A stretch of 55,650 bases of DNA from Rhodococcus yananensis. GTDB taxonomy: Bacteria; Actinomycetota; Actinomycetes; Mycobacteriales; Mycobacteriaceae. Both the position numbers and the translations under genes were made by a program. Position 1 is the stretch's first letter; each line of letters begins with the position of its first letter. The DNA is taken from contig NZ_JAIYEP010000023.1 of assembly GCF_020515525.1 (NCBI RefSeq), forward strand, positions 1 to 55,650, given 5' to 3'. The notes beneath the pieces were generated by a model that searched no databases, was not told the DNA's origin, and was given only the letters and a program-made list of their open reading frames with translations. Below, in pieces: positions 1,159 through 39,577 of this stretch.

Positions 1159-1209
1159 GCGCGAATGTGCCACTCGCTCGATCCAGTCGATCGAACGATA
1201 CATTCGCGC
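1159..1209. repeat. 51-bp palindromic element, copy A
   Basis: The element starts GCGCGAATGT and ends ACATTCGCGC, with a less regular interior (CACTCGCTCGATC on the left, GATCGAACGAT on the right). It is exactly 51 bp, like the copies at 8622, 34118 and 39527. It lies 34 nt beyond the stop of the CoA synthetase gene (minus strand), so it probably acts as the terminator of that gene. Confidence 0.8.
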
Positions 1210-1243
1210 GCAACGGAATCGGCGACTCGCCGAATCTCGGTGG

Positions 1244-3136
1244 TCAGCCCTGTAGCTGCTGCCGCAGGGCTTCGAGCACCGCGGGATCCTCGATGGTCGA
1301 CGGCACCGAGTACTCCTCGTGATCGGCGATCTGCCGCATCGTCTTACGCAGGATCTTGCCGGAGCGGGTCTTCGGGAGTGCCTCGACGACGGTCACGTCG
1401 CGGAATGTCGCGACCGCGCCGATCTGGTCGCGGACCATCGTGACGAGTTCGGCACGCAACTTCTCGTGCTCGATGTCGACACCCGCCTTGAGTACGACGT
1501 ACCCCGACGGGCGCTGGCCCTTGAGGTCGTCGCGGATTCCGACGACGGCGCATTCGGCGACCGCCGGGTGCGCCGCCACGACCGCTTCCATGCTCCCGGT
1601 CGAAAGCCGGTGTCCGGCAACGTTGATGACGTCGTCGGAGCGACCCAGGACGAAGACGTAGCCGTCGTCGTCGATGAATCCGGAGTCGCCGGTGAGGTAG
1701 TGGCCGGGGAAGGTATCGAGGTACGAGCGGCGGTAGCGCTCGTCGTCGCGCCACAGTCCGGTGAGGGTGCCCGGTGGCAGCGGCAGCCGCACCACGATGT
1801 TGCCCTCGGTGTTCGCGTCGACCGGTGTGCCCTCGCCGTCGACGATCTCCACCCGGTAACCGGGCACCGGCACGGTCGGGGAACCGGCCTTGATCGGCAT
1901 GGGGTCGAGACCGCGCAGGTTCGCGACGATCGCCCAGCCCGTCTCGGTCTGCCACCAGTGGTCGACGACGGGGCGACCGAGGACCCGCGTGGCCCACTCG
2001 TAGGTGTCGGGGTCGAGGCGCTCACCGGCGGCGAACAGCGTCTGCATCGTCGAGATGTCGTACTCGGCGAGTTCTGCCGCGTCGGGGTCGGCCTTGCGTA
2101 CGGCACGGATCGCGGTGGGTGCCGTGAACAGGGCCTTCACGCCGTACTCCGAGATGATTCGCCAGAACGCACCCGCGTCGGGGGTGCCGACGGGCTTGCC
2201 CTCGTACATCACCGTCGTCGCACCCCGCAGCAGGGGCCCGTACACGATGTACGAGTGCCCGACGACCCACCCCACATCGGAGGCGGTCCACCACACGTCA
2301 CCGGGGGAGATGTCGTAGATGTTGCGCATCGACCACAGCAGCGCCACCGCATGACCACCGTTGTCGCGGACCACACCCTTCGGTTTCCCGGTGGTGCCGG
2401 AGGTGTACAGGATGTACAGCGGATCGGTGGCCGCGACCGGCACAGGGTCGGCGGGCGACGAGGCGGCGGTCAGTTCGTCCCAGTCGAACCACGCCGCGGA
2501 CGAGGCCTTGTGGTCGGCGGCGGAACCGGGGACCTCCTCGCGGTTCTTCACGACGACGGTGTGCGGCGGGGTCTTCGACAGTTGCAGCGCCTGCTCGACC
2601 ATCGGCAGGTATTCGATGGTGCGGCCGGGTTCCAACCCACCCGACGCCGTCACCAGCAGCACGGGCTGTGCGTCGTCGATGCGGGTGGCGAGTTCCTTCG
2701 CGGCGAACCCGCCGAACACGACCGAATGCACGGCACCGATGCGGGCGCACGCGAGCATCGCGACGGCGGCCTCCGGGATCATCGGCATGTAGATCACCAC
2801 GCGGTCGCCGGCGACGACACCCTGATCGCGCAGCGCACCCGCGAAGGTGGCGACCTCGTCGAGGAGCTGCGCGTAGGTGTACGTGCGCTTGGCCGGGACC
2901 ATCGCCGAATCCCAGATCAGGGCGGCGCGGTCGCCGTGGCCTGCGGCGACGTGCCGATCGAGGGCGTTGACGCTGGTGTTGAGGGTGGCGTCGGGAAACC
3001 AGCGGTAGGACGGCGCCTGCGAGTCGTCGAGGGCGCGAGTGGGTGCCGTCACCCACTCCACGTCCCGGGCGGCGGCGAGCCAGAACGTCTCCGGATCTTC
3101 CACGCTCTGCCGGAACGCGTTCTCGTACGAGCTCAT
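1244..3136 (-). CDS. prpE: propionyl/acetyl-CoA synthetase (AMP-forming)
   Basis: This 630-aa cytosolic acyl-CoA synthetase activates short-chain acids through an acyl-AMP intermediate. Visible motifs are the phosphate loop YTSGTTGKPKGVV (around residue 245), WWQTETG, the hinge/ribose segment YLTGDSGF and the C-terminal PKTRSGKILRK, whose last-motif lysine is catalytic and is the site of inhibitory acetylation in this family. Length and N-terminus (MSSYENAFRQSVEDPETFW) fit the PrpE branch better than Acs, but acetate may also be used. The ATG at 3136 is the first start with family-like residues; the reading upstream of it is non-coding in style. A copy of the 51-bp palindrome follows the gene. 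A degenerate CRP-type sequence (TGTGA-N6-CCACT, about 3163-3178) lies in the divergent promoter region. Confidence 0.9.
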   Translation of the reverse strand: MSSYENAFRQSVEDPETFWLAAARDVEWVTAPTRALDDSQAPSYRWFPDATLNTSVNALDRHVAAGHGDRAALIWDSAMVPAKRTYTYAQLLDEVATFAGALRDQGVVAGDRVVIYMPMIPEAAVAMLACARIGAVHSVVFGGFAAKELATRIDDAQPVLLVTASGGLEPGRTIEYLPMVEQALQLSKTPPHTVVVKNREEVPGSAADHKASSAAWFDWDELTAASSPADPVPVAATDPLYILYTSGTTGKPKGVVRDNGGHAVALLWSMRNIYDISPGDVWWTASDVGWVVGHSYIVYGPLLRGATTVMYEGKPVGTPDAGAFWRIISEYGVKALFTAPTAIRAVRKADPDAAELAEYDISTMQTLFAAGERLDPDTYEWATRVLGRPVVDHWWQTETGWAIVANLRGLDPMPIKAGSPTVPVPGYRVEIVDGEGTPVDANTEGNIVVRLPLPPGTLTGLWRDDERYRRSYLDTFPGHYLTGDSGFIDDDGYVFVLGRSDDVINVAGHRLSTGSMEAVVAAHPAVAECAVVGIRDDLKGQRPSGYVVLKAGVDIEHEKLRAELVTMVRDQIGAVATFRDVTVVEALPKTRSGKILRKTMRQIADHEEYSVPSTIEDPAVLEALRQQLQG

Positions 3137-3278
3137 CGGTTCGTGTCCTTCCTCGACAACGATGTGATCGCGACCACTGTATTCGACGCTCCGGGACGCG
3201 AGTGGGTGCCGACGGGAACCGTGCGCCCGACGGTGTCGAACGGTCGACGAGCGGAGGCGACGCTCGTAGGGTGAGCGC

Positions 3279-3947
3279 ATGACTCTGCTCGCCGAGGATC
3301 TGCTGTTGCTGGCGCTCGACGACGACTCCGGCAAGGCCGTCGTCGACGGTGTGACGCTGCCGCGTGCGCTCGCCGGTGCCGTACTCCTCGAGTTGACTCT
3401 CGACGGTGTCGTGGTCCTCGACGGCGAGGGTGAGCGCCGACGCAGGGGGCGCGTCGTGGTCCGCGACGCGGTTCCGGCCGATCCGTTGCTCGCCGACGCG
3501 GTGGCGCAGCTGGGATCCCGGAAGCCGATGAAACCGGACGCAGCCATCGAGAAGCTGAGCGGGAAGATCCGCGAGCGTGTGCTCGAACGGGTCGTCGACA
3601 ACGGATGGGTGCGTGAGGAACGTGGCAGGATCCTGGGGTTGTTCCCCACCCGGCGGTGGCCCGCGACCGACGACAGTCATGAGCGGCAGGTTCGCGCCGA
3701 GTTGCATTCCGTGCTCGTCGACGGTCTGACGCCGACGCCGCGCACCGCCGCGCTGATCTCCCTGCTGTCGGCGGCGAAGATGGTGCCGAAGACGCTTCCG
3801 GAAGCCGACCGGAAGCGGGTCGCCCAGCGTGCCGTGGAGATCGCGGACGGGAACTGGGCGGGTGCGGCCGTGCGCAGGGCGGTCGACTCGGTGAACGCCG
3901 CCATTCTGGTGGCGGTCGCGGTGCCGGCCGTGGTCGCGAGCAACTGA
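3279..3947 (+). CDS. GPP34 (Golgi phosphoprotein 3-like) family protein
   Basis: This 222-aa protein begins MTLLAEDLLLLALDDDSGK, the hallmark start of the GPP34/Vps74 domain, which spans nearly the whole length and includes the helical KLSGKIRERVLERVVDNGWVREE and LGLFPTRRWP segments. In eukaryotes the fold binds phosphoinositides; the job of the common actinobacterial members is unknown. The gene looks leaderless: TAGGGT (3267-3272) lies 6 nt before the ATG. It is divergent from prpE and converges on accD3 with only 9 nt between stops. Confidence 0.85.
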   Translation: MTLLAEDLLLLALDDDSGKAVVDGVTLPRALAGAVLLELTLDGVVVLDGEGERRRRGRVVVRDAVPADPLLADAVAQLGSRKPMKPDAAIEKLSGKIRERVLERVVDNGWVREERGRILGLFPTRRWPATDDSHERQVRAELHSVLVDGLTPTPRTAALISLLSAAKMVPKTLPEADRKRVAQRAVEIADGNWAGAAVRRAVDSVNAAILVAVAVPAVVASN

Positions 3948-3956
3948 CGTCCTCGG

Positions 3957-5462
3957 TTACCGGGGTGTGCCGAGTCGCCGGTAGCGTTCGAGGCGGCGGG
4001 CGCGCCGGGCGTCATCGGATTCTGTTGCCAGGGAACCGAGTTCGCAGGCGACGGCCGCGCCGACGCGCTTGAGGAATGCGACCGGCTCGTCGGCGGCATC
4101 CGGGTGTTCGGGCACGACTCCGTCGACGACACCGTCACGCAACAGATCTCGCGACCGGATGCCCTGGTCGGTGGCCATCCGGGGTGCGTGGACGGTGTCG
4201 CGGTGCACGATCGCGCTCGCCCCCTCCGGCGGCAGCGGGGCCAGCCAGCCGTGCTGCGCACACAGCACGCGGTCGGCGGGCAGCAAGGCCAGGGCGCCGC
4301 CGCCGGTGCCCTGCCCGAGCAGCACCGACACCGTGGGTGTCCGCAGGGTGACCAGATCCGCGAGGCACCGCGCGATCTCGGGCGCCAGACCACGTTCCTC
4401 GGCGTCCCGCGACAGGGCGGCACCCGACGTGTCGATGACGAGCACCAGAGGCAGACGCAACTCCTCCGCCAGGCGCATCGCGCGCCGTGCTTCCCGCAGC
4501 GCACCCGGACCCATCGGCGCCGCCGCGGTCTGGCCGCTGCGGTCCTGACCGAACAGGACGCAGGACACCCCGCGGAACCGGGCCAGCGAGAGCAGCACCG
4601 TCGCATCCGATTCGCCCTCTCCGGTGCCCGAGAGCGGTACCTGCGCGGACGCGGCGTGTCGCAGGAGTTGACGGATGCCGGGGCGGTCGGCGCGGCGGCT
4701 GAGCATCACCGACTGCCACGCCGGAACGTCCGGGACGGCGTCGACATTCGCGACGGCGGGTTCGGCGGCGGTGTCAGGACGGTTCTCCTCCACCAGGACC
4801 CGCAGCAGTCGGTGCACCACCTGTCGCAGCCCGTCCAGCGGGATGACACCGTCGATCACACCGCGTCGGTACAGGTTCTCCGCGGTCTGCACGCCCTCGG
4901 GGAAGTCCTCGTGGTACAGCGCCCGGTAGACGCGGGGGCCGAGGAACCCGACGAGGGCACCCGGCTGCGCTGCGGTGACGTGACCGAGAGACCCCCACGA
5001 CGCGAACACCCCGCCTGTCGTCGGATCGCGCAAGTACACCAGGTAGCCGAGGTGAGCGGCCTTGTGGGCCGCGACCGCCGCAGCGATCTTCACCATCTGC
5101 ACGAACGCAACGGTTCCCTCCTGCATACGGGTACCACCCGACGTGGGGGAGGCGAGCAGCGGAAGCCCTTCCGCGGTGGCGCGTTCGACCGCGGTGACGA
5201 TGCGTTCGGCCGCCGCGACCCCGATCGACCCTGCAAGAAAAGCGAACTCGCAGGCGATCAGCGCGACGCGACGGCCGTGCACGGTACCCACGCCCGTGAT
5301 CACCGACTCGTCGACCCCGGACCGCTCGGCTGCTCGGGCGAGGGCGTCGCGGTATTCGTCGTCCGCATCCACCCGAACCGGCGCGGTGTCCCACGACGTG
5401 AAACTGCCCGGGTCGAGTACCCGGTCGATGAATTCCTGCGCCGAGATCCTGTTGCCGGCCAC
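3957..5462 (-). CDS. accD3: AccD3-like acyl-CoA carboxylase carboxyltransferase subunit
   Basis: This 501-aa protein has two crotonase-fold carboxyltransferase halves. The N-terminal half carries CEFAFLAGSIGVAAAERI and SPTSGGTRMQEG, the acyl-CoA and oxyanion segments. The C-terminal half carries LVLVIDTSGAALS, LGQGTGGGALALLPADRVL and WLAPLPPEGASAI. Residue order and length closely follow M. tuberculosis AccD3 (Rv0904c), a poorly characterised member of the AccD set. The GTG start at 5462 is preceded by GGGAGG 5-6 nt upstream. In M. tuberculosis accD3 sits next to echA6; here that neighbour is 15 kb away (20747), suggesting a rearrangement or insertion. The biotinylated partner is not in this window, and the substrate is unknown. 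Confidence 0.88.
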   Translation of the reverse strand: MAGNRISAQEFIDRVLDPGSFTSWDTAPVRVDADDEYRDALARAAERSGVDESVITGVGTVHGRRVALIACEFAFLAGSIGVAAAERIVTAVERATAEGLPLLASPTSGGTRMQEGTVAFVQMVKIAAAVAAHKAAHLGYLVYLRDPTTGGVFASWGSLGHVTAAQPGALVGFLGPRVYRALYHEDFPEGVQTAENLYRRGVIDGVIPLDGLRQVVHRLLRVLVEENRPDTAAEPAVANVDAVPDVPAWQSVMLSRRADRPGIRQLLRHAASAQVPLSGTGEGESDATVLLSLARFRGVSCVLFGQDRSGQTAAAPMGPGALREARRAMRLAEELRLPLVLVIDTSGAALSRDAEERGLAPEIARCLADLVTLRTPTVSVLLGQGTGGGALALLPADRVLCAQHGWLAPLPPEGASAIVHRDTVHAPRMATDQGIRSRDLLRDGVVDGVVPEHPDAADEPVAFLKRVGAAVACELGSLATESDDARRARRLERYRRLGTPR

Positions 5463-5542
5463 GCCGCCTCCCTCGTCGATACGTCCGGGACAGACTGTAC
5501 GAGACGGGAGGTGGCGGTGGCACACGATCGTGCGCAGCTCCC

Positions 5543-5600
5543 GCGGACCGAACTGTTTCCCGCGACGGCAGTTGCAGACGCGGGAAACAGTTGGGGCCGC
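5543..5600 (-). terminator. large hairpin downstream of the ABC-2 operon
   Basis: A 22-bp stem with two mismatches (GCGGACCGAACTGTTTCCCGCG at 5543-5564 reduced to a perfect 14-bp core AACTGTTTCCCGCG) pairs with 5579-5600 around a 14-nt loop. It lies about 80 nt beyond the stop of the permease gene at 5680 and upstream of accD3, so it probably ends the ABC operon. Confidence 0.6.
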
Positions 5601-5679
5601 AGGAACGGTTTCACCGTCGGGGTGTGGCCGAGCGCGATTTCCGATGGAAACTTGCGCACGGCCCCGTTCGACGGGACGG

Positions 5680-6873
5680 TCAGCGTCCCAGCGCTTCCTT
5701 CCACGTCACCGTGCGGCCGATCCTCAGGACCGAACGCTGGTAGATCTTCGCGGCCACCACGCCGAGCAGTGCGGTCGTGACGATCATCAGCACGACGGTA
5801 CCCACGATCTGGAGTGGCGTCGCGACACCGGCGGCGATGCGCAGCGGCATGAGAACCGCGGAGAACGGGGGAATCCAGCTCAGGACGGTACTCCACGTGG
5901 CTTCCGGATCGTCGATCGACGCGAACGCCGCGAAGAACATCGCGAGGATGACGAACATCAACGGTCCGGACGTCGAGTTGACGTCCTCCTGTCGTGACAC
6001 CATCGACCCGGCCGCGGCGTAGAGGACCGCGAAGAACGCGAAGCCGAGGACGAACCAACCGAGCGTGCTCGCGAACACTCCGAGCGCTGTTCCGGTGATG
6101 GTGAGGGTATCGGTGGCGAGCGCCGCACCGACACTCACCGCGCCGTACGCGGTGAGCTGCAGAAGACCGACCGCGCCGATGCCGAGGATCTTGCCCCACA
6201 GCAACTGCAGCGGCCGCAACGTCGACAGCAGCAACTCGACGACCCGCGACGATTTCTCCTCGACGACACCCATCGCGACGTACATGCCGAACATCAGGAT
6301 CTGCATGTACAGCACGACCACGGCGACGATCGACAAGATGATGCGTTGTCCCTGTTCGGGGTCCGGAGGATCGATGGCCTCCACCGTCACGGTGGCCCGG
6401 GCCGTCGCCGCGGCGATGTCGGCCGGATCCACGCCGCGCTCGGTCAGTGCCGTCGCCTGCGCCTGCTGGGCGACCGCGGCGTCGAGGAGCGCCGACAGAT
6501 CACTGTCGATGTCGGATTCGGTGAGCGCGGTGACGCTTCCGTCGTCGCCGGGAACCAGCGCGACATCGATCTCGCCGTCGGTGACCTGCGCGCGACCGGC
6601 GTCGGCGTCGGGCAGCTCGGAGAGGTCGAGCGGCATGCCGGTCGCCTCGCCGATGGTGCCGAGTGTCGCGCTGAGGCCCGACGTTCCGACGACGCCGACC
6701 CGGGGGCGGTCGTCGTCCCCGCCGCCGAGGAACGCCATCGCCACGATGCCGACGACGATCGCAACCAGGATCAGGCTGTTGCTGATGAGGAAGCTCTTCT
6801 TCCGGACCTGTGTCAGGAACTCCCGGCGGGCCACGAGGCCGATCGCACGGGTCGCGGTCAACGGGGCGCTCAC
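5680..6873 (-). CDS. ABC-2 type transporter permease (NatB-like)
   Basis: This 397-aa membrane protein begins with a cytoplasmic segment and TARREFLTQVRKKSFL-type amphipathic helix, then a first membrane helix (about residues 26-48), a roughly 170-residue extracytoplasmic domain, and five to six more helices from around residue 205. That layout is typical of the NatB/YhaP branch of ABC-2 permeases, exporters of drugs, lipids or ions. The GTG start at 6873 overlaps the stop of the ATPase gene by 4 nt (GTGA), showing translational coupling. It is the last gene of the four-gene operon begun by the XRE regulator at 8566. Substrate unknown. Confidence 0.88.
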   Translation of the reverse strand: MSAPLTATRAIGLVARREFLTQVRKKSFLISNSLILVAIVVGIVAMAFLGGGDDDRPRVGVVGTSGLSATLGTIGEATGMPLDLSELPDADAGRAQVTDGEIDVALVPGDDGSVTALTESDIDSDLSALLDAAVAQQAQATALTERGVDPADIAAATARATVTVEAIDPPDPEQGQRIILSIVAVVVLYMQILMFGMYVAMGVVEEKSSRVVELLLSTLRPLQLLWGKILGIGAVGLLQLTAYGAVSVGAALATDTLTITGTALGVFASTLGWFVLGFAFFAVLYAAAGSMVSRQEDVNSTSGPLMFVILAMFFAAFASIDDPEATWSTVLSWIPPFSAVLMPLRIAAGVATPLQIVGTVVLMIVTTALLGVVAAKIYQRSVLRIGRTVTWKEALGR

Positions 6874-7760
6874 GCGGCGACCACCTCTCGGAACAGATCG
6901 GTCAGGGACGGCTGATGCAGTGAGAATTCGTGGACGGGACCGGTTTCGAGCGCGGTCTCGAGGATCTTCTGATCGTCCACACCGGCGGTGACGGACAGGA
7001 CGGTGCGGCCGTCGGTCCGGTCGACGGTCGTGACGCCGGGAAGTCCGTTCGCCCATCCGTGCGGGGCGTTCGGGGCGTGAACGACGAGGCGGGCGTCGCC
7101 GCCGGACCGCAGTTCGTCGACGGTGCCGACCGCTCTCATCCTGCCCTTCACGATGATGCCGACCCGGTGGCACAGGCGCTCGACGAGGTCGAGTTGGTGG
7201 CTCGAGAAGATCACCGGCACACCGCTGTTCGCCTTGTCGATCAATACCTCGCTCATGACGTCCACTGCGACGGGGTCCAGGCCCGAGAACGGTTCGTCGA
7301 GGACGAGCACCTTCGGGTCGTGGACGAGTGCGGCGGCGAGCTGGACTCGTTGCTGGTTGCCGAGCGAGAGTGAATCGACGGTGTCGCCGATGCGTTCGGC
7401 GATGCCGAGGCGTTCCGTCCAGCGGCGTACCGCATCCGACGCTTCTGATCTCGAAAGTCCATGCAGTTGAGCGAGATACGAAAGCTGCTCTCCGACCTTC
7501 ATCTTCGGGTACAGGCCTCTCTCCTCGGGCATGTATCCGATGGTTCGGCGCACGTCCAGGTCGACGAGGCGGTCGTCGAGACGGACCTCCCCCGAATCGG
7601 CGGCGAGAACGCCGAGGGTGATGCGCATCGTGGTGGTCTTGCCGGCGCCGTTGCTTCCGACGAAACCGAAGAGTTCACCGGGGCGGACCTCGAAGCTCAC
7701 TCCGTCGAGTGCGACGGTGCTCCCGTATCTCTTGGAGATGTTGTCGATGGTCAGGGTCAT
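6870..7760 (-). CDS. ABC transporter ATP-binding protein (NatA-like)
   Basis: This 296-aa ATPase has Walker A GSNGAGKTTT near residue 40, the Q-loop region YMPEERGLYPKMKV, signature motif LSLGNQQRV, Walker B VLVLDEPFSGLDP and switch histidine in FSSHQLD. The MPEERGLY segment is typical of NatA-type exporters. Residues 220-296 form the extra C-terminal domain seen in this branch. The ATG at 7760 follows the stop of the membrane-protein gene by 1 nt and the 3' end overlaps the permease start, so all are co-translated. It should power the permease at 5680. Confidence 0.93.
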   Translation of the reverse strand: MTLTIDNISKRYGSTVALDGVSFEVRPGELFGFVGSNGAGKTTTMRITLGVLAADSGEVRLDDRLVDLDVRRTIGYMPEERGLYPKMKVGEQLSYLAQLHGLSRSEASDAVRRWTERLGIAERIGDTVDSLSLGNQQRVQLAAALVHDPKVLVLDEPFSGLDPVAVDVMSEVLIDKANSGVPVIFSSHQLDLVERLCHRVGIIVKGRMRAVGTVDELRSGGDARLVVHAPNAPHGWANGLPGVTTVDRTDGRTVLSVTAGVDDQKILETALETGPVHEFSLHQPSLTDLFREVVAA

Positions 7761-7761
7761 G

Positions 7762-8292: not shown

Positions 8293-8293
8293 G

Positions 8294-8566: not shown

Positions 8567-8576
8567 GCGATGAAGT

Positions 8577-8603: not shown

Positions 8604-8621
8604 TGACGACAACCTCGTGGT

Positions 8622-8672
8622 GAGCGAGTGGTACACCGGATCGATTCAATCGAGCGAGCGATACATTCGCTC
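8622..8672. repeat. 51-bp palindromic element, copy B (hybrid arms)
   Basis: This copy starts GAGCGAGTGGTACACC and ends AGCGATACATTCGCTC. Its left arm is the GGTACACC type of copy C, and its right arm is the ATGTATCGCTCG type of copy D. It lies between the XRE promoter and the hexanucleotide repeat, about 85 nt beyond the stop of the S4 gene, and probably ends that operon. Confidence 0.8.
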
Positions 8673-8690
8673 GGACGGCGGGGACGGCGG

Positions 8691-9133: not shown

Positions 9134-9135
9134 GG

Positions 9136-14591: not shown

Positions 14592-15479
14592 ATGGAACAC
14601 CCCGAATCGTTCACCGTCGAACGTCCGGGTCACTCGACCGGTGGGTGGGCGGTCGCCGTCGCCGCGCTCGTCGCCGAGCTCGCCGCGATCGGTCTCATCG
14701 TGTGGGGCGCGATCGAGGTGATCGTTCCGCTGATCGTCGTGGGTGCAGTGCTCTCCGTGGTCGCCGGCATCGCGCTGGTCGGGCTCGTCCTCGTCGAGCC
14801 GAACGAGGCGCGGGTGCTCCAGCTGCTCGGCGGTTCCTACGCGGGTACGCTCCGCGAACCCGGCCTGCGGTGGATGAATCCGCTCAACTCCCGGCTCAAG
14901 GTCTCCACCCGCATCCGCAACCACGAGACGGGTCGCGCCAAGGTCAACGACGCCGACGGCAACCCCATCGAGATCTCCGCGATCATCGTGTGGCAGGTGG
15001 AGGACACCGCCCGCGCCGTGTTCGACGTCGACGACTTCGAGGAGTTCGTCGAGGTCCAGACGGAGGCGGCCGTCCGCCACATCGCCGGCAGCTATCCGTA
15101 CGACGGTGACCGGGCGGTGATGTCGCTGCGTCAGAACGCCGACGAGATCACCACGAAACTGTCGGAGGAAGTGCGTGATCGGGTGCAATCCGCGGGTGTT
15201 CGCGTCATCGAGACCCGCATCAACCAACTCGCGTACGCACCGGAGATCGCGCAGGCGATGCTCCGCCGGCAGCAGGCCGGTGCGGTGATCGCGGCCCGCG
15301 AACAGATCGTGCACGGGGCCGTCTCGATGGTGGGCAACGCGCTCGAACGTCTCGAAGCCGAGCACACCGTCGAACTCGACGAGGAACGCAAGGCAGCGAT
15401 GGTCTCCAACCTGCTCGTGGTGCTGTGCGGAGACCAGGGTGCCCAGCCGGTGGTCAACACGGGCACGCTCTACCAGTAA
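14592..15479 (+). CDS. SPFH/band-7 domain protein
   Basis: This 295-aa protein has two membrane helices at residues 18-60 followed by [19 protein letters not shown] and a full SPFH domain, ending in a helical segment ([32 protein letters not shown]). SPFH proteins (stomatins, flotillins, HflK/C) form membrane-bound oligomers that organise microdomains or control proteases. The ATG at 14592 was chosen over the overlapping ATG at 14571 because AAGGAGG lies 6 nt before it. It is followed after 12 nt by a ribbon-helix-helix gene. Confidence 0.88.
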
Positions 15480-19562: not shown

Positions 19563-20545
19563 ATCACTTGCGCCACCGTCAGCACGGCGTCCGTGGGCAG
19601 TCGCGGGGTGGGCTTCGGGCGGCCCTCGTCGGGTGTCGCACCGATCCGCACCAGCGCCTGCGGGTAGCCGCCGTCCGGGACGAGGCCCGCGACCGTGGAC
19701 CGGCTGCGTGCCACCTCCGTCACGTGGGTGAGCGGGCACGTCGCGAACCGGTGAACGGTGGCTTCGAGCAGCAGGGCCGACAACGCCTCCCCGGCGGCGA
19801 GCCACGACGCGGTGTCGTCGTCGGAGGTCGAGATCAGCACGACCGTGGACCGGTCGGTGGTCGGGGGATGCGCGCCCGCGCCGCCGCGCGTGCCGGCGGG
19901 GAAACGTCGTCCGACGTCGACGCGGTCGCGCTGCTCGGCGGTGGCGAGCGCCTCGGCCGGAACCCCGGTGGCGCCGGTGGAATGCCCTGTCCACCAACTC
20001 AACTCTTCGTGGTAGGCGGAGTCGTAACGACGCTGGGCTGCGCTCTGCTCGGTGGCCTCGGCCAACACCGACCGGGCCGGGACGTCGAGCGCCGTCACCG
20101 TTGCCGGGGACACCGCCGCGGTGGCGGCCACGATCCGTTCCACCACCGGATCATCCACCGGCGCGAACGGGCGCCGGTCGGAGCTGCGTCGCCGGATCGC
20201 CGACACCAGATCGAAATCGTGCGAGGCGGGGCGGGCGTCGTGTCCGAACCGGACCGTCGCGAGCCGCTCCGAACGGCCGCCCTCGGGCAGGGTCAGCACG
20301 TCCGTCGACCATTTCAGGGCGGTGAATGCGACGCGCAGATGGTGCAGGGCCGCCCCGCAGCTGATGACGAGTTGGCGCCCCGACGGATCCGCCGATCGCA
20401 CCGCCCGGGACGTGTCGCTGCACAGATCCAGTGCCGTCGTTCCGTACGTCCACCGCCACGGCTGGCTGTTGTGCACCGAGGGTGCGCGGCACGCGAGCGC
20501 CACGGCCATCCGCACCACATCGGTATCGGGTACGCGCACGCTCAT
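19529..20545 (-). CDS. Acg-family nitroreductase-like protein
   Basis: This 338-aa protein has the conserved N-terminal RAPSVHNSQPWRW and CGAALHHLRVAF segments and SAIRRRSSDRRPF in the middle, marking the Acg (Rv2032) group. These proteins have the nitroreductase fold, but Acg itself is reported to bind FMN with a lid that blocks access, suggesting flavin storage or a redox sink. In M. tuberculosis they are DosR-controlled; no clear DosR box is visible here. The ATG at 20545 is preceded by GGGAG 5 nt upstream. It is divergent from echA6 with a 200-nt gap. Confidence 0.82.
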   Translation of the reverse strand: MSVRVPDTDVVRMAVALACRAPSVHNSQPWRWTYGTTALDLCSDTSRAVRSADPSGRQLVISCGAALHHLRVAFTALKWSTDVLTLPEGGRSERLATVRFGHDARPASHDFDLVSAIRRRSSDRRPFAPVDDPVVERIVAATAAVSPATVTALDVPARSVLAEATEQSAAQRRYDSAYHEELSWWTGHSTGATGVPAEALATAEQRDRVDVGRRFPAGTRGGAGAHPPTTDRSTVVLISTSDDDTASWLAAGEALSALLLEATVHRFATCPLTHVTEVARSRSTVAGLVPDGGYPQALVRIGATPDEGRPKPTPRLPTDAVLTVAQVISRDPNRFPRR

Positions 20546-28838: not shown

Positions 28839-29615
28839 GTGAACGAGATCACCGACACCCTCGCCGTCCTCGCCGTCGACGACGAACCGCCCGCCCTCGA
28901 CGAGTTGGCCTTTCTGCTGCGCGCCCGACCAGAGGTCGGGCACGTCCACACCGCGGGAGAGGCCACGACCGCGTTGCGGCTCCTGCAGGGCGGGGGGATC
29001 GACGCCGTGTTCCTCGACATCAGCATGCCCGGACTCGACGGCCTCGAACTCGCCGGGATCCTCCGCAACTTCGCGACACCACCGGACGTGGTGTTCGTGA
29101 CCGCACACGACGACCGCGCGGTGTCCGCGTTCGACCTCGGTGCCGTGGACTACGTCCTCAAACCGCTCCGGGAGGAACGCCTCGCCGAGGCGGTGCGGCG
29201 CATCGCGCAGCGCCGCGCCCCCGCCACCGGCACCGACACGACCCCCGGCGACGAGGTGATTCCCGTCGAACTCGGCGGCATCACCACGCTCGTCCCGCGG
29301 TCGTCGGTGCGGTGGGTCGAAGCCGACGGAGACTACGCCCGACTCCACACCGACACCGCGTCACACCTCGTCCGCATCCCCCTCTCGTCGCTGGAGAGCC
29401 GCTGGGCGGACGCCGGGTTCCTCCGGGTACACCGCTCGTATCTGGTGGCATTACCACTGGTCACAGGGATCCGCAGCGTCGGATCCGGTCTCGTCGTGTG
29501 CATGCGGCCCGTCGGCGACGAAGCACCCGTCGAACTGCCCGTCAGCCGCCGACACACCCGCGAACTCAAGGACCGCCTGATCCGCGGACCGATGCAGAGT
29601 TGGACATCGCGGTGA
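28839..29615 (+). CDS. LytTR-family response regulator
   Basis: This 258-aa protein has a receiver domain (residues 8-125: AVDDE, phospho-acceptor D60 in FLDISMPGLDG, and DYVLKPL) and a LytTR DNA-binding domain (about 150-250: SSVRWVEADGDYARLHT, RVHRSYLV). Partner of the preceding kinase. The double repeat at 31966-31994 matches the LytTR site consensus and is its likely target. GTG start at 28839; its stop overlaps the next gene (GTGA). Confidence 0.9.
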   Translation: MNEITDTLAVLAVDDEPPALDELAFLLRARPEVGHVHTAGEATTALRLLQGGGIDAVFLDISMPGLDGLELAGILRNFATPPDVVFVTAHDDRAVSAFDLGAVDYVLKPLREERLAEAVRRIAQRRAPATGTDTTPGDEVIPVELGGITTLVPRSSVRWVEADGDYARLHTDTASHLVRIPLSSLESRWADAGFLRVHRSYLVALPLVTGIRSVGSGLVVCMRPVGDEAPVELPVSRRHTRELKDRLIRGPMQSWTSR

Positions 29616-30103
29616 CCGGATCACAGGACGACGACCCGCGGCAGCATCCGAGTGCCGCACCGCGGCAGCGCCCGAGTGCCGCACCGCGGCAGCGCCCGAG
29701 TGCCGCACCGCGGCAGCGCCCGAGTGCCGCACCGCGGCAGCGCCCGAGTACCGCACCGCGGCAGCGGGTCGTGCTCGCCGAACGGCGCGGCGCCCGGATC
29801 GTCCGAACCCGCGTCGAGGTGCAACAGCAGACGGCGGTCGGCGACGCGATGGTGCGCGGCCTCGTCCGGGCCCAACTCGGACTGGCACTGCGGGTCGCGT
29901 TGACCGTTGTGTGCCTGCTCGGCGCCGTCCCACTGATCTCCCACCTGCTGCCCGGTGTCGCGGGCGTGACGATCCTCGGGGTGCCGCTGCTGTGGATCGG
30001 GCTCGGCGCCGGCGCCTACCTGCTGCTGTTCGCGTTCGCGTGGCTGTACGTGCGGCTCGCCGAACGCAACGAACAGGACTTCACCGACATCACCGACGCC
30101 TGA
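29612..30103 (+). CDS. small membrane protein with N-terminal PSAAPRQR repeats
   Basis: This 163-aa protein starts with a hydrophilic tail holding five 8-residue repeats (PSAAPRQR, one with Thr), then a basic segment (VVLAERRGARIVRTRVEVQQQT) and two membrane helices (about residues 90-112 and 120-145). It sits between the LytTR regulator (4-nt GTGA overlap) and the symporter (7 nt gap). The position just before a sodium:solute symporter and the two-helix C-terminal half resemble DUF485 partners of such symporters, but the sequence is not clearly of that family. Confidence 0.75.
   Translation: MTGSQDDDPRQHPSAAPRQRPSAAPRQRPSAAPRQRPSAAPRQRPSTAPRQRVVLAERRGARIVRTRVEVQQQTAVGDAMVRGLVRAQLGLALRVALTVVCLLGAVPLISHLLPGVAGVTILGVPLLWIGLGAGAYLLLFAFAWLYVRLAERNEQDFTDITDA
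29648..29767 (+). repeat. 24-bp tandem repeat (five units) inside a gene
   Basis: Five head-to-tail copies of a 24-bp unit (CCGAGTGCCGCACCGCGGCA plus GCGC) encode the PSAAPRQR repeats. The first four units are nearly identical and the last has one A for G change. Near-identity suggests recent expansion, and copy number may vary between strains in whole codons. Confidence 0.85.
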
Positions 30104-32044: not shown

Positions 32045-32086
32045 CTGTGGTCACCACAACTCACACGTACGACCGAGGAGTCGGCA

Positions 32087-34080: not shown

Positions 34081-34095
34081 CGTCGGGGTGGATGA

Positions 34096-34187
34096 CCCAC
34101 CCCCCACCCCCCTGAGTGAGCGAACGGTACACCCGATCGATCGGATCGATCGGGTGTACCACTCGCTCACGGGTGGGGGCGGGTGGG
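34096..34187. terminator. extended hairpin with C-rich and G-rich arms
   Basis: Palindrome copy C is flanked by CCCACCCCCCACCCCCC (34096-34112) and GGGTGGGGGCGGGTGGG (34171-34187), which are largely complementary, so the stem can reach about 40 bp. The G tract also fits a G-quadruplex pattern (four G runs of three or more with one- or two-base loops) immediately before ligD. Probable terminator of the symporter operon, possibly affecting ligD expression. Confidence 0.6.
34118..34168. repeat. 51-bp palindromic element, copy C
   Basis: It starts GAGCGAACGGTACACCCGAT and ends GGGTGTACCACTCGCTC; both arms are the GGTACACC type and pair almost perfectly around GATCGATCGGATCGATC. It is flanked by a further GT/AC pair. 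It lies 37 nt beyond the symporter stop. Confidence 0.85.
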
Positions 34188-34202
34188 CGGCACAATGAGG
34201 GC

Positions 34203-36461
34203 ATGCCGACCCGCACGGTCGACGGGCTGCGACTGAACGTCACGAACGTCGACAAGGTGCTGTACCCGAGCACCGGCACCGTCAAGGGCGACGTCATCGA
34301 CTACTACATCGCCGTCGCCGGTGCGATGCTGCCGCACGTCGCCGGACGCCCCGGCACCCGCAAACGCTGGCCGAACGGGGTGGACGAACCCGCCTTCTTC
34401 GAGAAGAACCTCGCCGCGCACGCACCGTCGTGGCTCGACCGCCGCACCGTCCGACACCGGCACAGCACCGTCACCTACCCGGTGATCGACTCGGCGGCGG
34501 GGCTGGCGTGGCTCGGGCAGCAGGCCGCCCTCGAACTGCACGTGCCGCAGTGGCGATTCCACGGCCCTGTCCCGGGCATCGCGACCCGGCTCGTGTTCGA
34601 CCTCGACCCCGGACCCGGCGTGGGCCTGACCCAGTGCGCGCGGGTGGCGGGATACGTCCGCGACACCGTCGCGGAGTTGGGCTGGACGGCCTATCCGGTG
34701 ACCAGCGGCAGCAAAGGAATCCACGTCTACGTTCCCCTCGACCGGGAACTCGCCGCCGACGGTGCGTCCACCGTCGCGCGACAGGTCGCGATGAACCTCG
34801 CGACACTCCACCCGGACCTGGTGACGGCGACGATGTCGAAGGCCGTCCGCGGAGGCAGGGTGTTCGTCGACTGGAGTCAGAACAACGCCGCGAAGACCAC
34901 CGTTGCCCCGTACTCGCTGCGGGGCCGCGACGAACCGTGGGTGGCGGCGCCCCGCACCTGGGACGAACTCGACGATCCCGAGCTGCGACATCTGCGGTTC
35001 GACGAGGTCCTCGACCGCATCGCCGAACACGGTGATCTGCTGGACGGACTCGACCCACCGCTGCCCGACGACCCGCCGGCCGATGCGCTGAGCGTCTACC
35101 GTGCCAAGCGCAACGCCGCACGCACCCCCGAACCCGTCCCCGACACGATCGGCGACGGAGCCGACGACAACCGGTTCGTCATCCACGAACACCACGCGCG
35201 GCGCCTGCATTTCGACCTGCGTCTCGAACACGACGGGGTACTCGCGTCCTGGGCGGTGCCGAAGAACCTGCCGGAGGACACCGGAACGAACCATCTGGCG
35301 GTCCGCACCGAGGACCACCCCCTCGAATACCTGGGGTTCCACGGAACCATCCCCCGGGGCGAATACGGAGCCGGGGAGATGTCGGTGTGGGACACGGGGA
35401 CGTTCGACACCGAGAAGTGGCGCGACGACGAGGTGATCGTGTGGCTGCGCGGCACCCGGCTGACGGGACGGTACGCCCTCATCCGCACCGGTGGGCGCCA
35501 GTGGCTCGCGCACCGCATGAAGCGGCAGACCCCCCGATTCCCCGACGGCGTCCTGCCGATGTCGGCGACACCCGGCACCGTCGACGATCTCGACGCCGCG
35601 CGGTGGGCGTTCGAAGGGAAATGGGACGGCTATCGTGCGATCGCCGAGATCCGGGATTCCACCGTGCGATTGCGGGCACGGTCCGGTCGCGACATCACCG
35701 ACGAGTACCCGACGCTGGGCGACCTCGCGCGGATCCTCGCCGGCCACGACGCGGTACTCGACGGCGAGATCGTCGCGGTCGCGCCGGACGGCACCACGAG
35801 CTTCCGGTTGCTGCAGCACGGCGGGGTACCGCAGTACCGGGTCTTCGACGTCCTGTATCTCGACGGCGTGTCACTGCTCGGCAAACCGTACGACGATCGT
35901 CGCCGCGTACTCGACGCGCTGGCCGCGGCCGTCGACGGACTGTGCGTCCCGGAGCCGATCGCGGGCGACGGCGCGGCAGCGGTGCGCGCCGCGGCGGACC
36001 GCGGCTGGGAGGGTGTCGTCGCGAAACGACGCGACTCGCCGTACCTGCCGGGCAAGCGCAGTCCGACGTGGATCAAGGCGAAGAACTGGCTCACACAGTC
36101 GGTGGTCGTCGGCGGATACCGGTGGGGGAAGGGTGCGCGCACGGCGACGTTCGGGTCGCTGCTCGTGGGTGTCCACACCGACGACGGACTCGTGTACGCG
36201 GGCCGGGTCGGCACCGGTTTCGACGATCGCGACCTGGCGTATCTGACGGCCGAACTGCATGCGCGCGAACGCCCCGACTGCCCGTTCACCGGTGGCGTGC
36301 CCGAGGCGGATCGCGGTGACGCGGTGTGGGTCGCGCCCGAGCTGGTGGGGGAGGTGCAATTCCAGGCGTGGACCGACGGGGGGCGTCTGCGGCATCCCAG
36401 CTGGCTGGGAACACGCGACGATCTCGGCCCCGAGGCGGTGCGGCGGGAGGACACGACGTGA
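34203..36461 (+). CDS. ligD: multifunctional NHEJ DNA ligase D
   Basis: This 752-aa protein has the three LigD domains in mycobacterial order: polymerase/primase (residues 1-290, metal-binding VFDLDPGPG, SGSKGIHVYVPL), 3'-phosphoesterase (about 320-450, HEHHARRLHFDLRLEHDG, WAVPKN) and ATP-dependent ligase (470-750, FEGKWDGYR with adenylated K473, DGEIVA, EGVVAKRRDSPY, WIKAKN). It repairs double-strand breaks together with Ku. The ku gene, adjacent in M. tuberculosis, is not in this window. ATG at 34203 with GAGGG just upstream; the longer reading begins inside palindrome copy C and was rejected. Confidence 0.95.
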   Translation: MPTRTVDGLRLNVTNVDKVLYPSTGTVKGDVIDYYIAVAGAMLPHVAGRPGTRKRWPNGVDEPAFFEKNLAAHAPSWLDRRTVRHRHSTVTYPVIDSAAGLAWLGQQAALELHVPQWRFHGPVPGIATRLVFDLDPGPGVGLTQCARVAGYVRDTVAELGWTAYPVTSGSKGIHVYVPLDRELAADGASTVARQVAMNLATLHPDLVTATMSKAVRGGRVFVDWSQNNAAKTTVAPYSLRGRDEPWVAAPRTWDELDDPELRHLRFDEVLDRIAEHGDLLDGLDPPLPDDPPADALSVYRAKRNAARTPEPVPDTIGDGADDNRFVIHEHHARRLHFDLRLEHDGVLASWAVPKNLPEDTGTNHLAVRTEDHPLEYLGFHGTIPRGEYGAGEMSVWDTGTFDTEKWRDDEVIVWLRGTRLTGRYALIRTGGRQWLAHRMKRQTPRFPDGVLPMSATPGTVDDLDAARWAFEGKWDGYRAIAEIRDSTVRLRARSGRDITDEYPTLGDLARILAGHDAVLDGEIVAVAPDGTTSFRLLQHGGVPQYRVFDVLYLDGVSLLGKPYDDRRRVLDALAAAVDGLCVPEPIAGDGAAAVRAAADRGWEGVVAKRRDSPYLPGKRSPTWIKAKNWLTQSVVVGGYRWGKGARTATFGSLLVGVHTDDGLVYAGRVGTGFDDRDLAYLTAELHARERPDCPFTGGVPEADRGDAVWVAPELVGEVQFQAWTDGGRLRHPSWLGTRDDLGPEAVRREDTT

Positions 36462-36594
36462 ACACGATTCGCGGGCCGTCGACGTGTCTGCGCCCCGATG
36501 CCCCGGGAAAAATGTAGCGTTACTCGCAGACCGGACCGCAGTCCGTCGGGGAACCGCCCGGTCGTCGGTGCAGCCCAGCTCGAGGATTCGTGTC

Positions 36595-36897
36595 ATGACC
36601 AGTGCGCTCGGCCCCTCCCCGATATCAGGTCCCGCGCGGGTCCGTTCCGTACTCGCCGCGCCACCGTCGGCGCCCGTGCGGTTGTCGGACCGTGAGATCG
36701 AGATCCTCCGCATGTGGCTGATGACCGAGTCGAAAGCGGAGGTCGCGGCGTGTCTGCACGTCACGGTGGCGACGGTGAGCACGCACATCTCGCGGATCCG
36801 CGAGAAGTACACGCGGGTGGGTCGTCCCGCACCGACGAAGACCGCGTTGCTCGTGCGTGCGCTGCAGGACGGCGTGATCACGATCGACGAGTTGTGA
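36595..36897 (+). CDS. LuxR-type helix-turn-helix protein (stand-alone)
   Basis: This 100-aa protein is a disordered N-terminus plus a LuxR/NarL-type helix-turn-helix (VRLSDREIEILRMWLMTESKAEVAACLHVTVATVSTHISRIREKY, residues 29-72) and a short helical tail. There is no receiver or sensor domain. A probable -10 (TAGCGT, 36515-36520) lies 75 nt upstream, giving a leader of about 70 nt; CGAGGA precedes the ATG. Target unknown. The 130-nt gap after ligD holds only this promoter. Confidence 0.78.
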   Translation: MTSALGPSPISGPARVRSVLAAPPSAPVRLSDREIEILRMWLMTESKAEVAACLHVTVATVSTHISRIREKYTRVGRPAPTKTALLVRALQDGVITIDEL

Positions 36898-36945
36898 CGT
36901 CACGCGAATTGTGACGGGACGGTCGGCGACGTACTGTCGCGGGCC

Positions 36946-37275
36946 GTGACTGTCGTCAAATCGATCGTTCTGTTCGTGGTTGCCGCGCTGTTCGAGATCG
37001 GTGGTGCGTGGCTCGTGTGGCAGGGCGTGCGCGAACACCGCGGTTGGATCTGGGTCGGTCTCGGCGTCCTGGCGCTCGGCGCATACGGATTCGTCGCGAC
37101 CCTGCAACCCGACGCTCACTTCGGGCGGATTCTCGCCGCCTACGGCGGGGTGTTCGTTGCGGGATCGCTCGTGTGGGCGATGGTGATGGACGGCTTCCGG
37201 CCCGACAGGTGGGACGTCACCGGTGCCCTCGTGTGTCTCGTCGGGGTCGCCGTCATCATGTACGCGCCGCGCTGA
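36946..37275 (+). CDS. YnfA/UPF0060 family membrane protein
   Basis: This 109-aa protein has four membrane helices and the family motifs [13 protein letters not shown] near the start and [16 protein letters not shown] plus [19 protein letters not shown] near the end. Related to small multidrug-resistance-like proteins; transport role unproven. GTG at 36946 with TACTGT 8 nt upstream, so probably leaderless. It converges on the secreted-protein gene with 6 nt between. Confidence 0.9.
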
Positions 37276-37281
37276 CGCAGG

Positions 37282-37740
37282 TCAGCCGACGACGACGGTG
37301 CCTGTCGCCGGGGTCGAGTTGCAGAGCGGTCCGCTGCCGAGGCTCACGGACCCGAACACGGTGACCAGTACCTCGCCGGCGCCGGTCTCGACATCCGCCG
37401 ACAGGTTCGGGTACGTACCCGCGAGGTCGGCCATCCCCGCCGCACCGGTGTCGCGGTTGAGCCACGCCACCGACACCTGGCCTGCCGCGGGCATGATCCC
37501 GATCGCCGGCCCCGTCGAGAACACCACGTGACCGGGTGCGATCGCCGGGTCGGTCTCGGGCCCCGGTTGCGCGGTGACGGTGGTGAACGACGCGAGACTG
37601 CCCTGGTTGAGGCAGCCGATGGTGACGGCCGTACCCACCGGCTGGGCGGGTGCCGCGGTGGCGGCGCCGGCCAGCGCGACGGCGGCCGCGACGGGTGCGG
37701 CGAGGGTGAGTGCTCGACGGATGGCTCGCAATGCAGGCAT
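37282..37740 (-). CDS. secreted hypothetical protein
   Basis: This 152-aa protein has a classical signal peptide (MPALRAIRRALTLAAPVAAA, hydrophobic to about residue 29, cleavage near ATAAPA) and a mature part of about 120 residues rich in Gly, Ala, Thr and Val with two cysteines (C43 and C140) that could form a disulfide. No known domain is recognised. ATG at 37740 with GAGGAG 8 nt upstream. The 195-nt divergent gap to the GNAT gene holds only promoters. Confidence 0.8.
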   Translation of the reverse strand: MPALRAIRRALTLAAPVAAAVALAGAATAAPAQPVGTAVTIGCLNQGSLASFTTVTAQPGPETDPAIAPGHVVFSTGPAIGIMPAAGQVSVAWLNRDTGAAGMADLAGTYPNLSADVETGAGEVLVTVFGSVSLGSGPLCNSTPATGTVVVG

Positions 37741-37935
37741 GCTGCAGGCTCCTCGATGTCCGGGTCCTCATCGCCGGGTGCCCACCGCCGGTTCAGCAGG
37801 CGGCGCGTCCCGTACCGATGACTCCGGTGAGTGTATCGGGAAGACGCTGTGCGACGAGGCGATTCGACGAGGGTGGGTGCCGTGATTCCGCGGTGCGCCC
37901 ACCGCGCCGAACCGAACGGTGGTTATCGTCGACGG

Positions 37936-38544
37936 ATGGATTTCCTCGCGATCCCCACACTGACCGGACGCCTCGTCACGCTCGAACCGCTCGGGCGCGA
38001 GCATCGCGACGACCTGGCGGATGCGGTCGCGGAGGACGGCCTGTACGAGAAGGCCTGGTACACGCGGACACCGTCACCCGAGGGGATGGGCGCGGCGATC
38101 GATGCGAAGTCGGCCGAGCACGCCGCCGGTCGCGTCGTCCCGTGGGTGATCCGACGGGCCGCCGACGGCACGGCGGTGGGCATGACGACGTTTCTGAACA
38201 TCCGCGCCGACCACCGGCGTCTCGAGATCGGCTCGACCTGGCTGTCGGCGAGCGCGCAGGGAACGGGAATCAACACCGAGGCCAAGCTCCTCCAACTCAC
38301 CCACGCCTTCGAGACGTTGCAGTGCATCGCCGTGGAATTCCGCACGCACTGGCACAACCGGCGGTCGCGGCGTGCGATCGAGGCACTCGGTGCGAAGCAG
38401 GACGGGGTTCTGCGCAACCATGATCTGTGGCGCGACGGGACGATGCGCGACGTCGTGGTCTTCTCGATCATCGAGAACGAGTGGCCGACGGTGAAACTGG
38501 GACTGACCGAGAAGCTGCGTGCCGGTCCGGTGCCGCGGACCTGA
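37936..38544 (+). CDS. GNAT family N-acetyltransferase (RimJ/RimL-like)
   Basis: This 202-aa protein has the GNAT fold with LTGRLVTLEPLGREH at the start, TTFLNIRADHRRLEIGSTWLS in the core and the acetyl-CoA loop region AQGTGINTEAKLLQLTHAFE, followed by TEW-type HWHNRRSRRAIEALGAKQDG. It is of the RimJ/RimL type that modifies protein N-termini or small molecules; substrate unknown. ATG at 37936 with TATCGT 6 nt upstream, leaderless. Confidence 0.88.
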   Translation: MDFLAIPTLTGRLVTLEPLGREHRDDLADAVAEDGLYEKAWYTRTPSPEGMGAAIDAKSAEHAAGRVVPWVIRRAADGTAVGMTTFLNIRADHRRLEIGSTWLSASAQGTGINTEAKLLQLTHAFETLQCIAVEFRTHWHNRRSRRAIEALGAKQDGVLRNHDLWRDGTMRDVVVFSIIENEWPTVKLGLTEKLRAGPVPRT

Positions 38545-38565
38545 CCCGGGCGCCACCCACACACC

Positions 38566-38584
38566 CTGAGTTAGGGTGACCTCA
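38566..38584 (+). promoter_or_regulatory. IdeR/DtxR-like box at the siderophore-interacting protein gene
   Basis: CTGAGTTAGGGTGACCTCA agrees with the IdeR/DtxR consensus TTAGGTTAGGCTAACCTAA at 13 of 19 positions by hand alignment. It covers the predicted -10 TAGGGT (38572-38577) and reaches the ATG at 38584, so binding of an iron-loaded repressor would block transcription. Confidence 0.4.
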
Positions 38585-39474
38585 TGAAATGGGAGAACTT
38601 CGTTTCCACCCTGGTCGGCAGCGAATCGGTCACCGCGAACCTGCTGCGCCTCCGCTTCGAGATCGGTGGCGGCACCGGACCCGGCTACGTGCCGATCGCG
38701 CCGGGGGACGAGGCCGTCGCCTTCTACTTCTCCGGCGACGGTGAGGAACTGCACGCTCGGCCCAGCGACAATCCCGCCGCGCTGGGCGGCTGGGAGATCG
38801 CCGACGAGGAACGCAGCGTCGGGCACCGCAACTACACGGTGCGCGCGTTCGATCCGTCGACGCGGACGATGACCGTCGATGTCGCCGTCCACGATCACGG
38901 CCCCGCGATCGACTGGTTCCGGGCCGCCGAACCCGGCTGGCGTGTCCTCACCGCGGGGCCGCGCTCCTGGTACGAGCCGCCGGCCGCCGGTCGGCACGTA
39001 CTCGCCGGTGATCTTGCGGCGTTGCCCGCGCTCGCTCGGATCCTCGAGGCGACCGACGAGTCGATCCCGGTGACCGTGATCGCGGAGGTCCTCGACCGCA
39101 GCGACCTCGACTACCTTCCCGCCCGCGCGAACACCGAGATCGTCGAACTCGTCGGATCGGGCAACGGTGCGGCACCGACACGACTGTCGTCGGCGTTGAC
39201 CGAACTGGACCTGCCCGCGGACGCGTACTGCTGGTTCTCGGGTGAGGCAGCCGACATCCGCGCTGCGAAGAAGCACCTGCGGTCGCTGGGGTGGTCGCGC
39301 GACCGGTTCGACATCGTCGGCTACTGGCGTGAGGACGCCGAGAAGTGGGCAGTGAAGTTCGAAGAATGCGGCGACGAACTGCGTCGGATCTACGCGGACG
39401 CCCTCGCGGACGGCAAGTCGGTCGAGGAGGCCATGGACGTCTACGAGGAAGCATTGGAGAAGGCCGGACTCTGA
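38584..39474 (+). CDS. siderophore-interacting protein (FAD/NAD(P)H ferric reductase)
   Basis: This 296-aa protein has the FAD-binding RNYTVRAFD motif near residue 83 and the SIP-family GPAIDWFRAAEPGWRVLTAGPRSWYEP segment, followed by a C-terminal NAD(P)H-binding half (HVLAGDLAALPALARIL, YCWFSGEAADIRAAKKHLRSLGWSRDRFDIVGYW) and an extra helical tail of about 40 residues. It should release iron from ferric siderophores in the cytosol. ATG at 38584 with TAGGGT 6 nt upstream: leaderless. Confidence 0.9.
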   Translation: MKWENFVSTLVGSESVTANLLRLRFEIGGGTGPGYVPIAPGDEAVAFYFSGDGEELHARPSDNPAALGGWEIADEERSVGHRNYTVRAFDPSTRTMTVDVAVHDHGPAIDWFRAAEPGWRVLTAGPRSWYEPPAAGRHVLAGDLAALPALARILEATDESIPVTVIAEVLDRSDLDYLPARANTEIVELVGSGNGAAPTRLSSALTELDLPADAYCWFSGEAADIRAAKKHLRSLGWSRDRFDIVGYWREDAEKWAVKFEECGDELRRIYADALADGKSVEEAMDVYEEALEKAGL

Positions 39475-39526
39475 TCGCCCCGGTCGCGCCGGTGCCCGCC
39501 GAGTCGCGGGTGCCACCCGCCCCGGT

Positions 39527-39577
39527 GAGCGAATGTATCGCTCGCTCGATTGATTCGAGCGAGCGATACATTCGCTC
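39527..39577. repeat. 51-bp palindromic element, copy D
   Basis: The most perfect copy: GAGCGAATGTATCGCTCGCT and its complement pair with only one mismatch across 25-bp arms around a single central base. It lies 52 nt after the siderophore-interacting protein stop and 54 nt from the 3' end of the convergent tRNA gene, so it can insulate both. Confidence 0.9.

Follow-up and report, generated by a model that had tools for sequence, protein, structure and literature searches.

To our knowledge, HUH transposases are the sole example of a gene dedicated to dispersed palindromes. The closest described layout is that of the REPIN-RAYT systems (REPtrons), for which three reports (PMC3116915, PMC8049555, PMC6006769) describe doublets of a short inverted repeat at fixed spacing, dispersed between genes, and a single- or low-copy gene that is inherited in place and flanked by its own repeats, the repeats being commoner where the gene is present. 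Here we compare with this layout a family of 51-bp palindromes, four copies of which lie in a 55,650-nt stretch of Rhodococcus yananensis (contig NZ_JAIYEP010000023.1, positions 1 to 55,650; the window hereafter, always at its full length), together with a partner gene elsewhere in the same 4.25-Mb genome (G000). Our reading, to which we assign a probability of roughly 0.6, is that the palindromes are REPIN-like elements made of inverted 25-nt half-sites, situated at gene ends, and that a single gene is dedicated to them. Sequence comparison shows directly that the family exists and has a fixed length, that certain half-site positions never vary, that the gene is bracketed, that gene and family match from genome to genome and that unrelated sites share an identical variant; that the partner protein copies the palindromes is something we infer.

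A model of the element (R1), built from 40 copies of this genome and scored on both strands, gave at least 150 rows in G000, and R1 together with a BLAST search yielded 79 intact copies, a lower bound that leaves aside two copies (L041, L043) truncated at the ends of contigs. All but one of these are exactly 51 nt long (78/79), the other being 52 nt. A strict pattern with 20 fixed bases matched the genome 59 times in forward form and not at all in reversed form. The view of an earlier note on this DNA that its four copies belonged to a dispersed family, rather than being chance hairpins, is thus borne out, and the search of this and related genomes that it proposed turned up many further copies. 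Gene calls from a home-made caller based on codon usage leave 72 of the 79 copies wholly extragenic; the other seven reach 2-27 nt into a gene end, and no copy lies inside a gene.

Each unit consists of two inverted 25-nt half-sites at a fixed spacing, so that the dispersed doublet of REPIN-RAYT has its counterpart here. The 78 full-length copies provide 156 half-sites, among which positions 3, 5, 9 and 13 are invariant and positions 4 and 6 vary once, and copies differ from one another at 12.6 of 51 positions on average. Pairs of half-site types within a copy (42 AA, 27 AB and 9 BB) are close to those under free assortment (39.5, 32.0 and 6.5). On the transcribed strand of the 31 copies in tandem contexts, 45 G-U pairs stand against 50 A-C pairs, showing no G-U preference. 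Given this near-free reassortment of half-sites and the lack of a G-U preference, the element is not simply a hairpin kept by compensatory change. Unlike REPINs, the elements are symmetrical: the consensus ends GAGCGA/TCGCTC leave no unpaired tag, and neither GTAG nor CGTC was found at the foot. The outer left base is C or T in 75/79 copies (the right one G or A in 78/79) and is therefore not the G of GTAG.

The stop codon of an immediate neighbour lies within 100 nt of 58 of the 79 copies, a mapping that the earlier note had also proposed. A first count of neighbour orientation gave 32 convergent, 32 tandem, 10 divergent and 5 unassigned copies; it missed some gene-end overlaps (L040 and L061 are convergent, not tandem), so that convergence is understated if anything. 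When the count is restricted to gaps whose two neighbours were both called, convergent gaps make up 31 of 71 with an element and 9 of 97 without one (p = 3e-7), the latter being no shorter than 60 nt and drawn from the same sequence stretches, a few of these stretches overlapping one another. Within tandem gaps the copy is closer to the upstream stop in 20 of 30 cases (median 65 nt, versus 139.5 nt to the next start).

The 40-nt flanks of the elements in G000 are skewed in composition, the left being C-rich (1409 C, 906 G) and the right G-rich (940 C, 1437 G), a bias that element-free convergent gaps lack. At L040:2001, L061:2001, L009:2001 and L011:136 the called gene terminates 24-27 nt within the element, which seems to supply the stop codon. 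Several copies are found at the ends of contigs or close to them (G000 contigs C12, C102, C6, C35, C70 and C133), a hint that the palindromes are where the assembly breaks.

The partner gene is present in G000 as a single copy outside the window (G000:C57:15327-16292, about 320 aa), between elements at 15086 and 16322. Its locus, L059:2001-3287, corresponds to G000:C57:15086-16372, and alignment places the start at L059:2242, upstream of the gene caller's start. At a Rhodococcus sp. locus (L104) the gene has elements upstream and, about 590 nt further on, downstream; at a further locus (L164) it is cut by the end of the stretch and has two elements upstream. A profile of the Actinomycetospora protein recovered 13 open reading frames in the collected set, these three included. 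One Actinomycetospora locus, traced through 13 genomes, has the gene present or absent at one place between two palindrome units; there, a diverged form of the gene in three species is bracketed by a different palindrome family, one species has a single 51-mer without the gene and another has a plain hairpin without it.

We measured bracketing by the local match between upstream and downstream flanks, which exceeded the 95th percentile of swapped flanks at 25 of 38 homologue loci and at 25 of 29 loci from a class-wide search (p = 1e-15; one of 30 was dropped for a short flank, and the G000 locus is included again, leaving 24/28 without it). Across the class, homologues are thus bracketed by different palindromes, each by its own, and a gene flanked by its own repeats is a further feature shared with REPIN-RAYT. 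Against control genes, the partner gene ranked first of 141 in G000 (flank score 83.2), the next score being 34.2 among similar neighbouring genes at 45-47 kb, and the two partner genes of Actinomycetospora were the top two of 200. Adjacent genes at window positions 45007-47407 share similar repeated segments (73 and 114 nt, 77%), which probably cause the second-highest control score. The control is unclean at a lower cut-off, since scores above 18.4 occurred in 64/200 Actinomycetospora genes and 12/141 G000 genes; above 30 they occurred in 10/200 and 2/141 (including two and one partner genes, respectively) versus 20/29 partner loci. Flanking genes are conserved across many loci in two separate neighbourhoods and a third in Actinomycetospora, the neighbours being a luciferase-like and an enoyl-CoA hydratase gene in G000 and genes for leucyl-tRNA synthetase and inositol-phosphate synthase in Actinomycetospora. 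The partner gene is therefore mostly inherited in place, as RAYT genes are.

Gene and palindromes also occur together across genomes. A close homologue (E below 1e-50) is found in eight of 18 genus genomes, exactly the eight with six or more R1 rows (Fisher p = 2.3e-5), six rows on both strands being equivalent to about three elements. Eight of the ten genomes without a close homologue have no R1 rows, and counting any row gives p = 0.001. In a sample of 151 genomes from the family, R1 matches and gene were both present in 20, the element only in 2, the gene only in 11 and neither in 118 (p = 4e-15); here strong gene matches were counted, any genome not redrawn for the gene sample was scored as gene-negative, and four members of the genus that the R1 family sample did not include were omitted. 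Among 394 sampled genomes of the class, the gene profile was found in 108 and the strict pattern in two.

Palindromes with other words follow the gene to differing degrees. The word CCGAAYGTCAC occurs in five of the 18 genus genomes (15, 23, 3, 13 and 14 copies), and a gene copy flanked by it was found in four of the five, the fifth being the incomplete genome G010. R1 also detects this family at shared places, so that R1 counts mix two families in G001, G007, G011 and probably G012. A third word, GGGGAGGNTGTGT, occurs in seven of the 18; two copies bracket a distant homologue (about 29-31% identity) in G005 and G008, and its match with a gene is thus partial. Strict-pattern matches listed came from Actinomycetospora, Pseudonocardia, Rhodococcus, Rhodococcoides and a few odd records, with sequences that differ between genera. 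The strict pattern itself fixes the length at 51; a looser scan of the same stretches for lengths 49-53 gave 116 of 121 matches at 51, in stretches that had been picked by the 51-nt pattern. Some units in Actinomycetospora are paired 75-76 nt apart, and one Rhodococcoides locus has an array with a 30-nt period.

A further palindrome family in Actinomycetospora, GCGAGGGGAACCC...CCTCCCCTCGCG, lies around a diverged partner gene and elsewhere (L200, L199, L194; L145:6199-6252). Related 51-mers with identical flanks, most of them at contig ends, occur in a metagenome-assembled genome labelled as a beta proteobacterium (L117, L122, L123, L130, L166, L181, L182); they are probably part of a longer repeat and a separate family.

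One 46-nt core recurs unchanged in G007 at five sites whose flanks are unrelated, including a site next to the partner gene, and at the two of the five for which an orthologous site was compared the core in G001, a related species, differs. The inner core was less conserved than the flanks in seven of nine orthologous pairs. An apparent family switch at one orthologous G007/G001 site was rejected, as alignment gave the same family on both sides.

The partner protein, unlike that of REPIN-RAYT, is not an HUH (Y1) transposase. An HUH motif is absent from 21 of 22 members, the remaining one having HAH, probably by chance, and Pfam scans of the members found no Y1 transposase family. NCBIfam gave no match for three members, and sequence searches of the PDB no useful match. 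The N-terminal part matches PADLOC AbiEi models in all 22 members (residues 19-185 of the G000 protein). Weak Pfam matches (E up to 0.1) were obtained among the 22 to AbiEi_4 (six), MTES_1575 (four), AbiEi_1 (two) and AbiEi_3_N (two). Those to MTES_1575 are sub-threshold matches of the C-terminal part to REase_MTES_1575 (PF18741), which we take to have a Vsr-like fold, and this part carries a conserved motif, D-G/N-W/F ... E/D-x-x-S-x3-H, in 21/22 members. Because the Pfam matches are weak, and below cut-off wherever one is shown, we treat nuclease function as a hypothesis, and any such activity as putative. PMC7319586 describes the AbiEi relative Rv2827c as binding inverted repeats; compared with AbiEi antitoxins of this type, the partner protein has an extra conserved C-terminal part, and its gene is not linked to a toxin gene at either of the two loci checked (G000 and Actinomycetospora). 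Because two defining features of REPIN-RAYT, the HUH transposase and the tags, are absent, we regard the system as working like REPIN-RAYT and do not file it as a member. The words actinobacteria, Rhodococcus, Mycobacterium, Streptomyces and Frankia do not occur in the available part of a 2013 survey of tagged repeats (PMC3733652), and we found no description of these palindromes or of the palindrome-gene pairing in the open-access literature.

If the domain resemblances are a guide, the protein would bind the half-sites through its AbiEi-like N-terminal part, and the C-terminal part, weakly resembling a PD-(D/E)XK nuclease, would cut in the palindrome or close to it, after which repair templated by a different copy could overwrite or seed sites by gene conversion. 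Such cut-and-repair copying would explain the reassorted arms, the exact length, the likeness of copies within a genome and the absence of target duplications (exact duplications of length 2, 3 and 4 flank 1, 3 and 1 of the 79 copies, and none of length 5 to 11 was found). Loss of insertions made elsewhere might account for the gathering of copies close to stop codons, where some may in addition terminate transcripts. Protein-driven gene conversion seems to us the most likely mechanism, judged as it is from sequence comparisons. It is a more tentative proposal, for which we would offer slightly less than even odds, that actinobacteria harbour a second, non-HUH class of palindrome-spreading systems, in which palindromes of about 51 bp are bound and cut by their own AbiEi-like protein, a widespread one that has a nuclease-like domain, recombinational repair copies them between gene ends, each lineage has its own matched pair, and many unexplained intergenic palindromes belong to the class. 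If this were true, partnerships between repeats and genes would have arisen more than once, since the matched pairing would involve an unrelated protein; a function would be suggested for a large group of uncharacterised proteins, and the species-specific palindromes at actinobacterial gene ends would be explained.

Several results weigh against palindromes served by a dedicated gene. The arms of a copy are somewhat more alike than re-dealt arms (5.58 versus 6.28 differences, P = 0.0025), and there is some covariation, with 58 cells changed on both sides compared with 30.6 in shuffles. In G000 a second gene, CtaG/CopD-like, also has an element on each side, and roughly one or two genes in this position are to be expected, so that bracketing in G000 alone is not remarkable and the weight of this evidence comes from other genomes. 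In the main lineages the chromosomal location of the partner gene is conserved, so the gene does not itself hop. The match across genomes is also imperfect: G010 (75% complete) and G014 have three and two R1 rows, respectively, without a close gene, G010 has three CCGAAYGTCAC palindromes without a close gene, five of the seven genomes with GGGGAGGNTGTGT had no distant homologue listed, and 11 family-sample genomes have the gene yet no R1 matches. The nine orthologous pairs were chosen through pattern hits in both species, such that element-lacking sites could not appear, and no clean pair of empty and filled sites was found among them. For the protein, the Pfam nuclease matches lie under the curated cut-off where a cut-off is shown, and a structure prediction from three sequences (predicted local distance difference test score 47.8) was not used.

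The earlier note had proposed either a terminator module or a non-autonomous mobile palindrome. We favour the mobile option because of the cognate bracketed gene, the phyletic match, the species-specific families and the one identical variant at five unrelated sites, and we regard termination as weakened as the reason for the family by the missing U-tract, the lack of a G-U preference, the near-random pairing of arms and the fixed length. In its fuller form, the terminator explanation would have bidirectional intrinsic terminators homogenised within each genome, with selection keeping the transcript hairpin and the partner gene coincidental. The proximity of stop codons, the excess of convergent gaps, the covariation and the folding energies of the two best window copies (-39 to -45 kcal/mol) would all be expected of such terminators, as would the finding that all 17 relatives show, by eye, a hairpin of some sort at the end of the symporter gene next to the window copy at 34118; most of these hairpins are unrelated in sequence, and three of the relatives have a 49-51-nt palindrome recognised by R1. 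However, the likeness to Rho-independent terminators is limited to position and hairpin potential: there is no U-tract on either strand (T in at most 11/79 copies at each of positions +1 to +8, A in at most 14/79 at each of -8 to -1), and the copy at 8622 folds at just -17 to -19 kcal/mol. A separate idea, insertion of the element into terminator loops, was rejected, as complementarity of the flanks beyond the element was not raised overall (5.75 versus 5.64 +/- 0.17 when permuted) or in the tail of the distribution. Terminators do not need a fixed length of 51, and this length, the sequence-level constraint on the invariant half-site positions and the gene-family match would be left unexplained. 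We therefore think it unlikely that termination accounts for the family; the copies may still act as terminators in a secondary way, by virtue of their location.

The same invariant positions and fixed spacing would suit chromosomal binding sites of a DNA-organising or regulatory factor, kept by selection and not moved by the partner protein, and the AbiEi-like N-terminus of all 22 proteins and the inverted-repeat binding of Rv2827c point the same way. The turnover of inner cores between close species and the one variant at five sites look more like a spreading repeat, and the location is at gene ends, not promoters; we consider such sites an improbable explanation, but one that deserves some weight. 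That the palindromes are operators of an AbiE toxin-antitoxin or defence locus, as the PADLOC matches might imply, is scarcely credible given the lack of a toxin partner at the two loci checked, where the neighbours are housekeeping genes, and given some eighty copies at gene ends, which are not operators. Fixed length, terminal inverted repeats and dispersal are equally what miniature inverted-repeat transposable elements (MITEs) left by a DDE transposon would show; this origin is very doubtful in view of the lack of target duplications in 79 copies, the absence of a transposase gene next to the partner gene at the two loci checked, and the absence of matches in a viral collection searched by pattern and in phages and plasmids searched with one 101-base query.

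The four window copies, none of which is assigned to a strand, were found by direct sequence check exactly where the earlier note had placed them and with the ends it gave. Its description of them as palindromic fits the copy at 34118..34168 (palindromy 0.90; both halves of type B; R1 score 67.6 bits) and that at 39527..39577 (0.94; both halves of type A; 78.2 bits) and suits less well those at 1159..1209 (0.71; 62.8 bits), which has GCGCGA ends and halves of the same broad type differing in detail, and at 8622..8672 (0.67; 55.4 bits), with a left half of type B and a right half of type A. All four lie beyond stop codons as claimed, at distances that the home-made gene caller puts at 34, 86, 37 and 52 nt in window order, compared with the 34-85 nt given before. 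Pfam agrees with three of the genes named in the note: an AMP-binding gene of acetyl-CoA synthetase type (1244-3136, minus strand) beside the first copy, an SSF symporter gene before the copy at 34118, which has a LigD-like gene on its other side, and a siderophore-interacting protein gene before the copy at 39527. The supposed S4 protein beside the copy at 8622 is a 93-aa open reading frame without a Pfam match at 0.001. The copy at 34118 is enclosed by a split inverted repeat, an arrangement that is not general across the family. The copy at 39527 is followed 52-53 nt further on by an opposite-strand tRNA-Arg, and two of three relatives compared have just a short spacer at this site.

Two other features of the window were noted. 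ARAGORN calls a tRNA-Arg (gcg) at 19839-19931 that an Rfam scan does not support and that is probably false. A 24-nt repeat runs head to tail about six times across positions 29612-29790.

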